64,000 nt of DNA from Polyangiaceae bacterium (lineage in GTDB: Bacteria; Myxococcota_A; Polyangia; Polyangiales; Polyangiaceae): positions 1,116,001 to 1,180,000 of the forward strand of contig JABTUA010000001.1 of NCBI GenBank assembly GCA_015075635.1. Direction: 5' to 3'. Below, piece after piece: positions 28,515-32,999 of this stretch. The translations under genes were made by a program, and so were the position numbers. Under the pieces are notes generated by a model. The model was not told the DNA's origin. It was given only the letters and a program-made list of their open reading frames with translations, and ran no database searches. The first letter of the stretch is position 1. Every line of letters begins with the position of its first letter.

Positions 28515-29919
<1,405 letters not shown>

Positions 29920-29948
29920 CTCTGGTGTGGAGAGTTGCGCACCCCGAA

Positions 29949-30074
29949 ACCCATGTCCGCCCTGCAAGTGCGGCAAGCGCTCGTCGGCTGAGGCCTGCGC
30001 CTCTGCCTCTGGGACAAAGACTCCTTCTTCTTCTTTCGTGGCGTTCGTGGCGTCGTGGCGCTCGTGGCGCATTT
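29949..30074 (+). pseudogene. Internally deleted copy of the DUF559 cassette
   Basis: Starts ACCCATGTCCGC, identical to 33004-33015 (the start of the DUF559 gene), then jumps directly to CCTGCAAGTGCGGCAAGCGC, identical to 33343 onward (the 3' end of the gene). It continues through the stop codon and the CGTGGCG repeat tail to GTGGCGCAT. About 327 bp of the coding region are missing. What remains is a non-coding unit with both cassette ends kept, similar to how MITEs derive from transposons. It is followed directly by R-repeat sequence (CCTGCCCCAACTCGCC). Confidence 0.8.
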
Positions 30075-30086
30075 CCTGCCCCAACT

Positions 30087-30439
30087 CGCCGCCGCTGCGC
30101 GGCGTCGGTCTTCCCCAAATTCGCGCTTCGCGCGAATGGGGAAGACGGGTCGTCCCGAGCTCGGTGCGTCTTCGCTCGTCGCTACGTGCGGTGTTCCGTA
30201 GCTGGCACGTCGTCGCACGCTGCTGCGAGCGGCCTGGTGTCCTCGGCCCGGCGCGGTGGTCGGGCTCCGCTCAACCGGCGCACGCTCTGCGCCACGCCGC
30301 TCGATCACTCGAAGCAACGGGCCGAATGTGTCGACGAATACGAAGCTGAGAGCGCCACAGGCGGCGTGTCACAGATCGTGCGCCCTGGGTCGCGAAGCCC
30401 GCCCACCACGCCGGGCCTCGGAGTCTTCCTGCCCCAACT
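30087..30439. repeat. Diverged copy of repeat R (R0), left part of the IS110-interrupted array
   Basis: Similar to the R units at 32081-32999 but diverged in the middle. The strong hairpin at 30108-30146 is kept (GTCTTCCCC / GGGGAAGAC outer arm, ATTCGCGC / GCGCGAAT inner arm). Compared with the other copies the inner arm has a compensating G-C to C-G swap. The 3' half (about 30281-30430) is nearly identical to 32851-32999. It ends GCCCCAACT, where the IS110-family element begins. Confidence 0.8.
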
Positions 30440-30629
30440 CCTGGAGGGGGAGATGTCAAGAATGGTTCTTCGCGTGGCCAGGGCCCACGACGCAGTTCGC
30501 GCGTCGGGCGGTTGGCTAGCAGTCACGGAGTAGCGCTCGGGGCTGGCGCCTTTCCAGGTACGCGAGTCTGGCGGCGCTGATCGAGACGGCGTGTCGCGGT
30601 GCGGAGACGATGAGCTGCTGATGGCGTGC

Positions 30630-30800
30630 TGAGAGTAGATGTCCGTGCCTGTCCGATTAGGGCGGCACGATCCTCCTGGAAGGGCCTCTTGGGTCCATGG
30701 CTTCAGTAGATGCTCCGAGGACGCACAACCTCGCATGGGGACCTCCGCTGCGCGTACAGGGGCCAGTTGGGGCATGGGTGCTTGTCCTCGAAGTTTTGGG
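30630..30800 (-). ncRNA. Candidate bridge RNA (seekRNA) of the IS110-family element
   Basis: Lies in the non-coding 3' end, downstream of the transposase on its strand. An 11-bp stem with a 2-nt bulge (30716-30726 with 30778-30790) encloses an internal loop. One side of the loop (30765-30774) reads TGCCCCAACT on the minus strand, identical to the plus-strand target at 30430-30439. The other side (30729-30734) contains CCTCGC, whose reverse complement pairs with the right half of the target. A second hairpin (30644-30649/30664-30669) lies next to 30672-30680, CCTCCTGGA, which equals the predicted circle junction of the element. The order, target loop then donor loop, matches known bridge RNAs. 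The RNA ends are not determined. Confidence 0.5.
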
Positions 30801-30853
30801 AGCCGCCGGCGAGCATTCGCTCCATCTGCACCGAGAGCGCGAGTGGCGAGCAG

Positions 30854-31908
30854 CTACTTCGCGTCTGTCGTGCAGTGCTTGGCCGGGTCGTACTCCTCCC
30901 TTTTCTTCCAGATCGCCAGGGTGGCCGAAGCGATGCGACGTGCAATCGTCAGGCGGGCGAGCGGTGGCTTGAGTTCTGCAGCAGCCGGTCGTAGTCGCGG
31001 CGCAGCGGGTGATCGGTCTGGGCGATGACGCTGAGCGCCGCGCCTTTGAATATGGCCTTCAGCAGGGGATTGCGGTTGCGGTTGAGGCCGCGGGTGTGGG
31101 CGACCTGACGGCGCACCCAGCGCTGGCTCCGCTCGTCGCGCTCGTAGTCCGACGAGCTGCGCGTGACGATGCCGAGGCCGCAGTACCCGAAGAAGTCGCG
31201 CTTCGTGGAAAAGCGGAACGGCGTGACGACGATCGCGACGATGTACGCTGCGCGCACCGGGCCGATACCTGGCAGCGTCGTCAGCCGGCGCACCTCCGCA
31301 TGCTCCCGTGCTTGCTCGAGCAGCCATGTCTCCGCCTGTTCGCGGACTTCGCACAGACCGTCGAGCTCGGTCGATAGCAGCTGAGCCATGCGCGCTCGGG
31401 CCGGCGGCAGCTTCGGCAGCCACTGATCCCGGGTATCCGGGTCGTAGATCTCGTCTCCCATGCCGTGGATGCCCCGAGAGCGATACAGCGCATTGAGCCT
31501 GAGCTTCGTGCGGACCACGTCGGCAGTAGTGACCCGATGAGCTCGCACCGCCTCGCGCAGCTGCGTGAAGCGGCCGCGCGCCTTGAAAACGACGTTCTCG
31601 AGGTCGCCCTTGCGGAGCTTCGAGGCGAGATTCCAGGCATCGATGGAGTCGTTCTTCGCTCCGGCATGCTTGTCGGGCTGGACCACCACGAGTTCCGCCA
31701 CGTGCGGCTCCAGGACCTCGCAGAGCCATTCGCTGAGGGTGCCCTCCTCCATGCACAGGCGACGCTGTCCGGGAATGGTGCGAACGAAGTCGATCAGCAC
31801 TTTCGCGTTCGTCTCGAGCGTTTGCTCGCGTAACTGACGGCCTGCCGAGCCCATCACCGCGAACGTGCAAGTTTGCGAATGCGCGTCGAGTCCTATATAG
31901 CGATCCAT
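30854..31908 (-). CDS. IS110-family transposase (DEDD recombinase; one frameshift)
   Basis: The protein starts MDRYIGLDAHSQTCTFAVM. The N-terminal DEDD (RuvC-like) domain shows the first Asp in GLDAHSQ, a Glu in CMEEGTLSEWL, and two Asp in KHAGAKNDSIDAWNLA. The C-terminal Transposase_20 part has LTTLPGIGPVRAAYIVAIV (helix-hairpin-helix) and FFGYCGLGIVTRSSSDYERD, where the catalytic serine is expected. The open frame ends at 30949. A one-base change near 30975 restores the C-terminus (ARLTIARRIASATLAIWKKR) to a stop at 30854, about 351 aa. A strong ribosome-binding site, AAGGAGG, sits 6 nt upstream of the ATG, inside a hairpin. Confidence 0.88.
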
Positions 31909-31909
31909 C

Positions 31910-31971
31910 GGTGTCCTCCTTGGTGGCTGTTTCGGTTTGCACTTGAGGCAGTACCACCACCGGAGGACGCC
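31910..31971 (-). promoter_or_regulatory. Stem-loop sequestering the transposase ribosome-binding site
   Basis: 31910-31919 pairs with 31962-31971 (10 bp, one G-U) and 31922-31926 pairs with 31954-31958 (5 bp), with small bulges between and a loop of about 27 nt. In the transposase mRNA the 3' arm contains AAGGAGG followed by the ATG at 31908, so the Shine-Dalgarno sequence is inside the stem. This would hold translation low in read-through transcripts, as seen in several other IS families. It could alternatively belong to an RNA made from this end. Confidence 0.5.
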
Positions 31972-32080
31972 GGTCGCAGAGCACGCGTTCCAGGCGATGG
32001 GCGCTCAGCCACACAGTCAGCGCGAGCACTCTGAGAACAGCTGAACCGAGCGTTCCAACCGCCACCCCCGTCTTATGCCT

Positions 32081-32999
32081 CGCCGCCGCTTCGCGGCGTC
32101 GGTCTTCCCCTTATTCGGGCTTCGCCCGAATGGGGAAGACGGGTCGTTCCGAGATTGGCGCGGCGTCGCTGAGGGTCACGAGCGGCTCGTGGTTCCTCGG
32201 CCCGGCATGGCGGTCGGGCTCCGCTCAATCGGCGCACGCTCTGCGCCACGCCGCGCGGTGAGCTGACGCGTGATGGTGAGTGGCCCGCGTCAGCGCGCTC
32301 GAGCGCGACTGGGGCGGCGTGTCACAGATCGTGCGCCCTGGGTCGCGAAGCCCGCCCACCACGCCGGGCCTCGGAGTCTTCCTGCCCCAACTCGCCGCCG
32401 CTTCGCGGCGTCGGTCTTCCCCTTATTCGGGCTTCGCCCGAATGGGGAAGACGGGTCGTTCCGAGATTGGCGCGGCGTCGCTGAGGGTCACGAGCGGCTC
32501 GTGGTTCCTCGGCCCGGCATGGCGGTCGGGCTCCGCTCAATCGGCGCACGCTCTGCGCCACGCCGCGCGGTGAGCTGACGCGTGATGGTGAGTGGCCCGC
32601 GTCAGCGCGCTCGAGCGCGACTGGGGCGGCGTGTCACAGATCGTGCGCCCTGGGTCGCGAAGCCCGCCCACCACGCCGGGCCTCGGAGTCTTCCTGCCCC
32701 AACTCGCCGCTGCTTCGCGGCGTCGGTCTTCCCCTTATTCGGGCTTCGCCCGAATGGGGAAGACGGGTCGTTCCGAGATTGGCGCGGCGTCGCTGAGGGT
32801 CACGAGCGGCTCGTGGTTCCTCGGCCCGGCATGGCGGTCGGGCTCCGCTCAACCGGCGCACGCTCTGCGCCACGCCGCTCGATCACTCGAAGCAACGGGC
32901 CGAATGTGTCGACGAATACGAAGCTGAGAGCGCCACAGGCGGCGTGTCACAGATCGTGCGCCCTGGGTCGCGAAGCCCGCCCACCACGCCGGGCCTCGG
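32081..32999. repeat. Tandem repeat R: two 312-bp units plus a 295-bp unit, hairpin-rich
   Basis: R1 (32081-32392) and R2 (32393-32704) are nearly identical 312-bp units. R3 (32705-32999) starts the same way but switches to the R0-type 3' half. Each unit begins with CGCCGC-TTC-GCGGCG (hairpin 1). It continues with a 17-bp stem (R1: 32102-32110 with 32132-32140, 32113-32120 with 32124-32131; loop TTC, bulge TT) and later GGCGCA-CGCTC-TGCGCC. The unit length is divisible by three, so long open frames run through the array, but I see no protein-like signal in them. R3 is followed directly by the DUF559 cassette. Confidence 0.88.

Follow-up and report, generated by a model that had tools for sequence, protein, structure and literature searches.

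A predicted bridge RNA in a Polyangiaceae insertion sequence

Among the closest described systems, IS621 of the IS110 group has a noncoding RNA with two internal loops, a target loop followed by a donor loop, each bearing two arms, and a CT core (available part of PMC11208160), and the IS1111 group includes the seekRNA elements ISEc11, ISPa11 with its REP target, and ISKpn4 (available part of PMC11187229). The same two-loop, four-arm layout and the same core are met in an insertion sequence lying in the stretch of 64,000 nucleotides analyzed here (hereafter, the window), which comes from the genome of a Polyangiaceae bacterium (assembly GCA_015075635.1, contig JABTUA010000001.1, positions 1,116,001 to 1,180,000). 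The segment 30654–30795 of the window, read on the minus strand, is very probably the bridge RNA of this element, steering its transposase by pairing to a host repeat and to the joined element ends. What comparison of sequences establishes is the ends of the element, the four arm matches (five of seven bases in the case of the 5′ donor arm), the covariation of the arms, and the covarying stems. Since the arms change jointly with the flanks and ends across relatives, the segment likely makes a guide RNA that chooses the insertion site.

The element and its target repeat

The element is an IS110-family insertion sequence of 1,639 bp (30440–32078, transposase on the minus strand), whose ends were fixed by comparing four insertions with uninterrupted sites. 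The same comparison places one copy of the CT core at 30438–30439 and the other at 32079–32080 (plus strand). The four copies in the genome (that of the window, L007, L008, and L009) have identical ends, differing outer flanks, and the same orientation relative to the repeat, and each is inserted at TGCCCCAA/CT/CGCCG within a dispersed repeat. On the plus strand of the window, the uninterrupted repeat reads ...CCTGCCCCAA-CT-CGCCGCC..., with the element sitting between two CT copies, at the edge of the palindromic repeat. The first-pass annotation, made from the letters of the window alone, had proposed a guide matching the actual insertion target of the element, a reading that the present analysis supports.

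The 16-mer CTGCCCCAACTCGCCG occurs uninterrupted at eight places in the genome (backward control, none), all of them belonging to the target repeat, and the 13-mer spanned by the two target arms leads to the same eight places. In the window, such sites are found on the plus strand at 30076–30091, 32382–32397, and 32694–32709. A 97-bp stretch of the repeat was found at 18 genomic places, four of which are cut by the element (among 40 of 118 candidates scored). At 32378–32800, a tandem duplication with a step of 312 bp comprises the target repeat together with its surroundings, and every copy is an uninterrupted target.

Structure of the predicted RNA

The two internal loops in series at 30654–30795 (minus strand) are predicted by the covariance model R1, which includes a full element copy and gives this segment 94.3 bits, together with covariation in 18 sequences. 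The alignment of these sequences (A2, the element and its relatives; L045 was omitted here and from the donor test owing to a deletion in its RNA) yields five helices; each of the two internal loops in turn is framed by an outer and an inner stem. Pairing is retained in 450 of 468 stem cells (96.2%), and two-sided changes are present in 12 of 26 pairs. None of 500 shuffles reached this stem pairing or these two-sided changes, and slid versions pair in 33–55% of cells; the number of further pair types, a weak statistic, was reached by 20 of 500 shuffles. The alignment confirms that the target loop precedes the donor loop in the RNA, the order anticipated in the first-pass annotation.

The stem that closes the target loop, previously described as having 11 bp, was located in the sequence, its 5′ strand at 30778–30790 and its 3′ strand, which also shows covariation, at 30716–30726 (both on the minus strand); it consists of seven plus four pairs around a two-base AA bulge, and its helices 1 and 2 show two-sided changes in five of nine pairs. 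When the genome itself was searched with R1 (150 of 3,106 candidates scored), the four element copies and one solo copy of the RNA were recovered, with nothing further at E ≤ 1. Rfam 15 gave no matches in the window at gathering score.

The target loop and its arms

The 5′ arm of the target loop, TGCCCCAACT (30765–30774, minus strand), is the exact complement of the right flank in the sense of the transposase gene tnp; the underlying 10-nt reverse complementarity, with TGCCCCAACT itself at 30430–30439, was already noticed at first pass and is correct. The second target arm proposed there, CCTCGC at 30729–30734, also stands: read on the minus strand as GCGAGG, it comprises GCGAG, identical to the other flank plus the core, and a final G, identical to the first base of the left end.

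It should be emphasized that a single 10-nt match is only mildly unlikely: when the 436-nt noncoding end was randomized by a first-order Markov model, 37 of 5,000 versions gave a run of this length against a 20-nt flank; the evidential weight rests on the comparative data. In the tnp sense, the 5′ target arm is represented by the nine bases that follow GCATCC-like letters, and these complement the right flank in each case by different letters: ATGCCCCAA with TTGGGGCAG in the element itself, AGGAGTAAC with GTTACTCCC in L012, AAGTGTCTC with GAGACACTT in L042, and ATGTGTCTC with GAGACACAT in L044. In the close relatives L042 and L044, arm and flank change jointly, down to a single base, which suggests natural retargeting through arm change. 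The condition under which the first-pass annotation would have been refuted, an unchanged 10-nt segment in related elements with different targets, does not hold; the segment changes with the flank.

Over the 15 elements with a readable right end, the 5′ target arm matches its own flank at a mean of 7.13 of nine positions versus 4.22 for swapped flanks (7.60 versus 5.57 when wobble pairs are allowed), values reached by none of 20,000 permutations in either case. The 3′ target arm, compared with the left flank plus core in 16 elements, matches at 6.69 of nine positions versus 5.45 when swapped (0 of 20,000 permutations; 1 of 20,000 with wobble). Duplicate loci (L046, L047, L049, L050, L070, L098, and L103) and contig-end fragments were dropped; L066, L067, and L014 (read as L056), whose right flank is missing, entered the left tests only, L045 and L016b the right tests only, and L043 was omitted from the right-flank test as its right end was not found.

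A held-out set was obtained by searching 347 genomes of the phylum of L013 with R1, which gave five matches, namely, one known locus, three new loci, and L102; to these were added L064, L072, and L073, which are outside the model, and L104 and L105 from the same family as the host. L102, at 26.6 bits, is a likely false hit, being without a transposase match and, by eye, inside a coding sequence, and was left out of the count; it scored 6 of 8. For each locus, the donor arm by itself served to position the right end (with as many as four tied places), which was afterwards scored against the 5′ target arm. The matches, out of eight, were 8 in L099, L100, and L072, 7 in L073 and L064, and 6 in L101, the swapped means being 4.65–5.69 and the swapped maxima 6–7; in total, five of eight loci match at 7–8 positions. 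The 3′ target arm of five loci outside the model matches the left flank at 7, 6, 7, 7, and 7 of eight positions (swapped, 3–7).

These results bear on the possibility that the 10-nt match arose by chance in a GC-rich sequence and that the transposase locates its site unaided. The frequency of such runs in the Markov versions speaks for it, but the arm at the same structural position matches differing flanks in relatives, the swap tests contradict it, and the arm also fits in most loci where the right end was placed independently of it, so that a chance match is very improbable.

The donor loop, the element ends, and the predicted junction promoter

The 3′ arm of the donor loop, TCCAGGAGG (30672–30680, minus strand), equals the right end TCCAGG, the core AG, and the first base of the left end; on the plus strand this is CCTCCTGGA, the 9-nt sequence that spans the junction of the ends (C-CT-CCTGGA), as the first-pass annotation had read it in suggesting a donor arm here. 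That role is supported by covariation with the right end: in 14 elements, the arm matches the right end plus core at 8.43 of nine positions versus 7.25 when swapped (0 of 20,000 permutations). The arm reads TCCAGGAG in the element itself, ATAGAAGG in L012 and in the Gemmatimonadota loci L015–L017, ATGGAAGG in L041, and ATGCAAGG in L013. A fixed AG core was rejected by eye, as relatives show GG, AA, AC, or CC at this place; the core is read as two bases included in the arms, with a U:G wobble for GG.

The second donor arm had been called not evident at first pass, and the initial search for it by mean identity gave a weak top hit at k = 7, which the later swap test with more loci made credible. 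It is CTGAAGC at 30700–30706 (minus strand), a heptamer that stops three bases short of the inner stem, and it covaries with the start of the left end, with which it pairs. Five of seven bases pair in each of CTGAAGC/GCATAAG (the element itself), ACAAAGC/GCATTAT (L012), AAATAGC/GCAATAT (L057), and AAGAAGT/ACAACTT (L073). Over 13 distinct pairs, the mean is 4.69 versus 3.82 when swapped, reached by 0 of 20,000 permutations with Watson–Crick pairs and by 9 of 20,000 with wobble, and an A–A mismatch is retained in 11 of the 13. Of the loci outside A2 (L057, L058, L072, L073, L100, and L101), all enter this test, except L072, or the later held-out test. The 5′ donor arm is the least certain of the four arms because its register was picked with the data already known and because the left end is in doubt in both L013 and L043.

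The ends themselves carry halves of a predicted promoter, recognized when they are joined. The right end (30440–30459, minus strand) contains the −35-like TTGACA (30454–30459), and the left end starts with GCATAAG (32072–32078, minus strand), the −10-like half and the partner of the 5′ donor arm; once joined, they read TTGACA, 17 bases, and CATAAG. The score against the consensus is 9–10 of 12 in 11 of 15 elements, 7 in L041, L042, and L044, and 8 in L065. Since the joined ends put CATAAG in promoter spacing, the left-end heptamer may double as a −10-like box and a donor. In 13 of 15 elements, short inverted repeats of 4–10 bp are found 3–9 bases inward from the two ends; the longest exact subterminal repeat is 5 bp in the element itself and 4–10 bp in 14 relatives (10 bp in L100), with at least 7 bp in 5 of the 15.

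Another reading takes the segment for a captured piece of an earlier insertion site without any guiding role. The match is indeed flank sequence copied within the element, and each relative could have captured its own; yet in this RNA, whose two-loop form is conserved, the copies occupy the same loop, and the arms fit the two element ends as well as the sequence on either side of the insertion point, an order that, like the donor arms, capture leaves unexplained. This makes capture as improbable as a chance match. An equally small probability is assigned to the suggestion that the RNA regulates the transposase and that the hairpin shape of the repeat sets target choice; the target does lie at the edge of a palindromic repeat, but the arms covary with flanks of differing sequence, and regulation predicts no such covariation. 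Least probable of all is a coding function of the noncoding end, where a reading frame of 156 amino acids (30305–30775, minus strand, starting inside the target arm) is open but extends beyond the element into the flank and, near its start, is separated from the other three copies by a one-base indel, and where two-sided stem changes indicate RNA constraint.

Weighing the guide RNA reading

Several points weigh against a guide RNA. Trimmed pieces folded alone gave z values of +1.32 (the element itself), −1.79 (L015), and −0.37 (L041), which are uninformative. When R1 was run on 25 sources, the window included, many of them contig ends or fragments, 15 were without a match at E ≤ 1, among them L021 and L024, which both have the transposase C-terminus, and L052 gave one cut-off match only (E 0.46). 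The 5′ target arm is weak in L016a and L071 (5 of 9) and in L016b, L045, and L069 (6 of 9), the 3′ target arm in L013 (4 of 9) and L069 (3 of 9, with the anchor displaced by one base); over 22 elements, the 5′ donor arm pairs at 3–6 of 7 bases. In the held-out set, L101, L104, and L105 match at only 6, 6, and 5 of 8 at the automatically chosen end (that of L104 fell at a distant place, and a nearer end picked by eye gives 7 of 8), at least one swapped arm does as well as the 7 of 8 of L064, and where ends were tied, as many as four per locus were tried, swapped arms being treated in the same way as own ones. Moreover, the elements are related, so the permutations overstate independence; the anchors were placed by eye on conserved ends; and flanks and ends had been seen before the swap tests of the target arms and both donor arms. 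Finally, transcription, RNA–protein binding, and strand exchange are steps that we infer.

Under the preferred guide RNA reading, the element would be excised as a circle, its ends joined as CCCCTCCAGG-AG-GCATAAG in the tnp sense, and the junction would create the TTGACA-17-CATAAG promoter, driving expression of the transposase and then of the RNA. Of the target-loop arms, TGCCCCAACT would bind the flank AGTTGGGGCA and GCGAG would bind the strand opposite to CGGCGAG; the donor loop would hold the right end and core through TCCAGGAGG and the start of the left end, GCATAAG, through CTGAAGC. Strands would then be swapped at the CT/AG core by a tetramer using DEDD and Ser252 catalysis, as known for IS621. 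The locus would offer a readable natural set of guide, target, and donor in a divergent lineage, and so a means of testing programmability in an enzyme that differs from IS621.

A solo copy of the RNA

The solo copy found by R1 lies between two open reading frames at 959397–959581 of contig C3 of the same genome, G000 (L010 1898–2082, minus strand), comprises 185 bp with 89% identity, and scores 83.7 bits. Its limits correspond to a point 12 bases past where tnp stops in the element and to the end of the donor hairpin. Three arms, the two of the target loop and the 5′ donor arm, are unaltered, and a single base of the nine in the 3′ donor arm has changed. No transposase was found at this locus by protein search and no element ends by eye, nor was the copy found in the two genomes of the same genus searched. 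The simplest reading is that the solo copy is a relic; a guide acting in trans is a less likely one.

Transposase and neighboring sequence

The transposase reading frame (30949–31908, minus strand, 319 amino acids) contains the DEDD domain PF01548 and the C-terminal domain PF02371, both exceeding the gathering score. Compared with the other copies, it is frameshifted near residue 314 relative to the 351-residue frame of L007, which L008 shares there. The same frameshift is found in L009, which carries further indels of its own. At 30758–30970, short runs in the window copy are longer or shorter by single bases than in the other copies; two of these differences are unique to the window copy, and some may be assembly errors.

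The model of the intact copy, L007, has an IS621-like fold. In 38 aligned proteins, D8 and E54 are conserved in 37 each, and D87, D90, and S252 in all 38; by motif spacing, S252 corresponds to S241 of IS621, although the loop has a pLDDT below 50 in the model. The Gly that follows the catalytic Ser is replaced in all 38 proteins, by Ser in 29 and Ala in 9. The IS110-family assignment made at first pass is apt as regards domains and fold, but the intact copy reaches 120 bits against NF033542 (NCBIfam, IS110 family RNA-guided transposase, equivalog), missing the curated cut-off of 140, as do the proteins P0039 (108.5 bits) and P0117 (115.4 bits). NF033542 matches all 38 aligned proteins at E ≤ 0.001 (best, 2.3e-42), and certain relatives may clear the cut-off.

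Beside the element, at 28519–29919, there is a gene resembling, by eye, a response regulator or sigma-54 activator, which appears split across two frames (28519–29319 and 29328–30533), perhaps by sequence error.

Distribution of relatives

At the set cut-offs and with known loci included, transposase relatives were found in 6 of 377 genomes of the host phylum, in 4 of 80 genomes of the phylum of the Latescibacterota locus, and in 8 of 298 of that of the Gemmatimonadota locus; matches to the RNA were found in 5 of 347 genomes of the phylum of the Acidobacteria locus, one of them likely false, and in 4 of 59 relatives, the host included. Related proteins in the protein collection number 1,481, of which 120 were listed. 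The lineage is found in genomes of these four phyla, mostly metagenome assemblies; no relative of the element was found in viral contigs at the settings used or in plasmids at E ≤ 1e-20.

On their right-flank side, L072 and L073 are inserted shortly upstream of a reading frame resembling, by eye, another IS110-type transposase, so that one mobile element may serve here as the target of another. The end of a contig filed under Opitutaceae (L020) carries the same element with the same right flank, transposase residues 244–351 being 100% identical; this is perhaps a contaminant contig from a near relative of the present genome.

Comparison with known systems

The mechanism proposed here is that of the known bridge RNAs and seekRNAs; what differs is the lineage and the mix of features. 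As in the IS1111 group, a long noncoding region with the RNA follows tnp in the element and the relatives read, the RNA carries its top-strand-pairing arm 5′ of its bottom-strand-pairing arm, and a promoter is predicted at the joined ends; as in ISPa11, the target is a repeat (available part of PMC11187229). The subterminal inverted repeats, which measure 7–17 bp in the IS1111 group, reach such a length in only some of the present elements, that of the element itself being 5 bp when exact. In contrast, the IS1111 motif GL-P----S(T)G given in the same source is absent: the place of P is taken by I (28), V (8), or L (2) in the 38 aligned proteins, and the motif reads GL-I----S(S/A). Many IS1111 elements have their donor nucleotides in a multiloop (available part of PMC11208160), whereas here the RNA is of the plain two-loop form. 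With IS621 the element further shares the DEDD and Ser fold (available parts of PMC11208160 and PMC11208158), but G242 of IS621, which contacts D102 (available part of PMC11208158), has Ser or Ala at the place given by motif spacing. Two further systems for comparison are the ISCro4 transposase (9t56), with 20% identity across 290 aligned residues, and TIGR-Tas, whose C-terminal RNA-binding domain is related, with a score of the present protein far below the cut-off of the TIGR-Tas model (34.8 against 100), but which, as described in the available part of PMC12045711, is not a transposon and uses guide arrays instead of one two-loop RNA.

As judged from sequence features, the position of the RNA and the order of its arms are IS1111-like, and its two-loop form is IS621-like. 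It is tentatively suggested, with less confidence than doubt, that the element may belong neither to the IS110 nor to the IS1111 group but to a third lineage of bridge recombinases, whose RNA module was freed once as a gene that could guide the enzyme in trans; the features of such a lineage would be the IS621-type two-loop, four-arm RNA, the reversed cassette, and the replacement of the Gly that positions the catalytic Ser loop in IS621. In the IS110 group (IS621-like), the noncoding RNA is upstream of tnp (available part of PMC11208160), whereas here it is downstream, so that the tnp–RNA cassette is reversed between the ends. In the CT orientation of the element, the strands with which the two loops pair are those given for IS621 in that source, and the RNA lies near the same end; relative to IS621, only the direction of the tnp–RNA cassette would then be inverted. 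This suggests a simple, testable link between the IS110 and IS1111 groups: the same RNA–DNA pairing with an inverted cassette.
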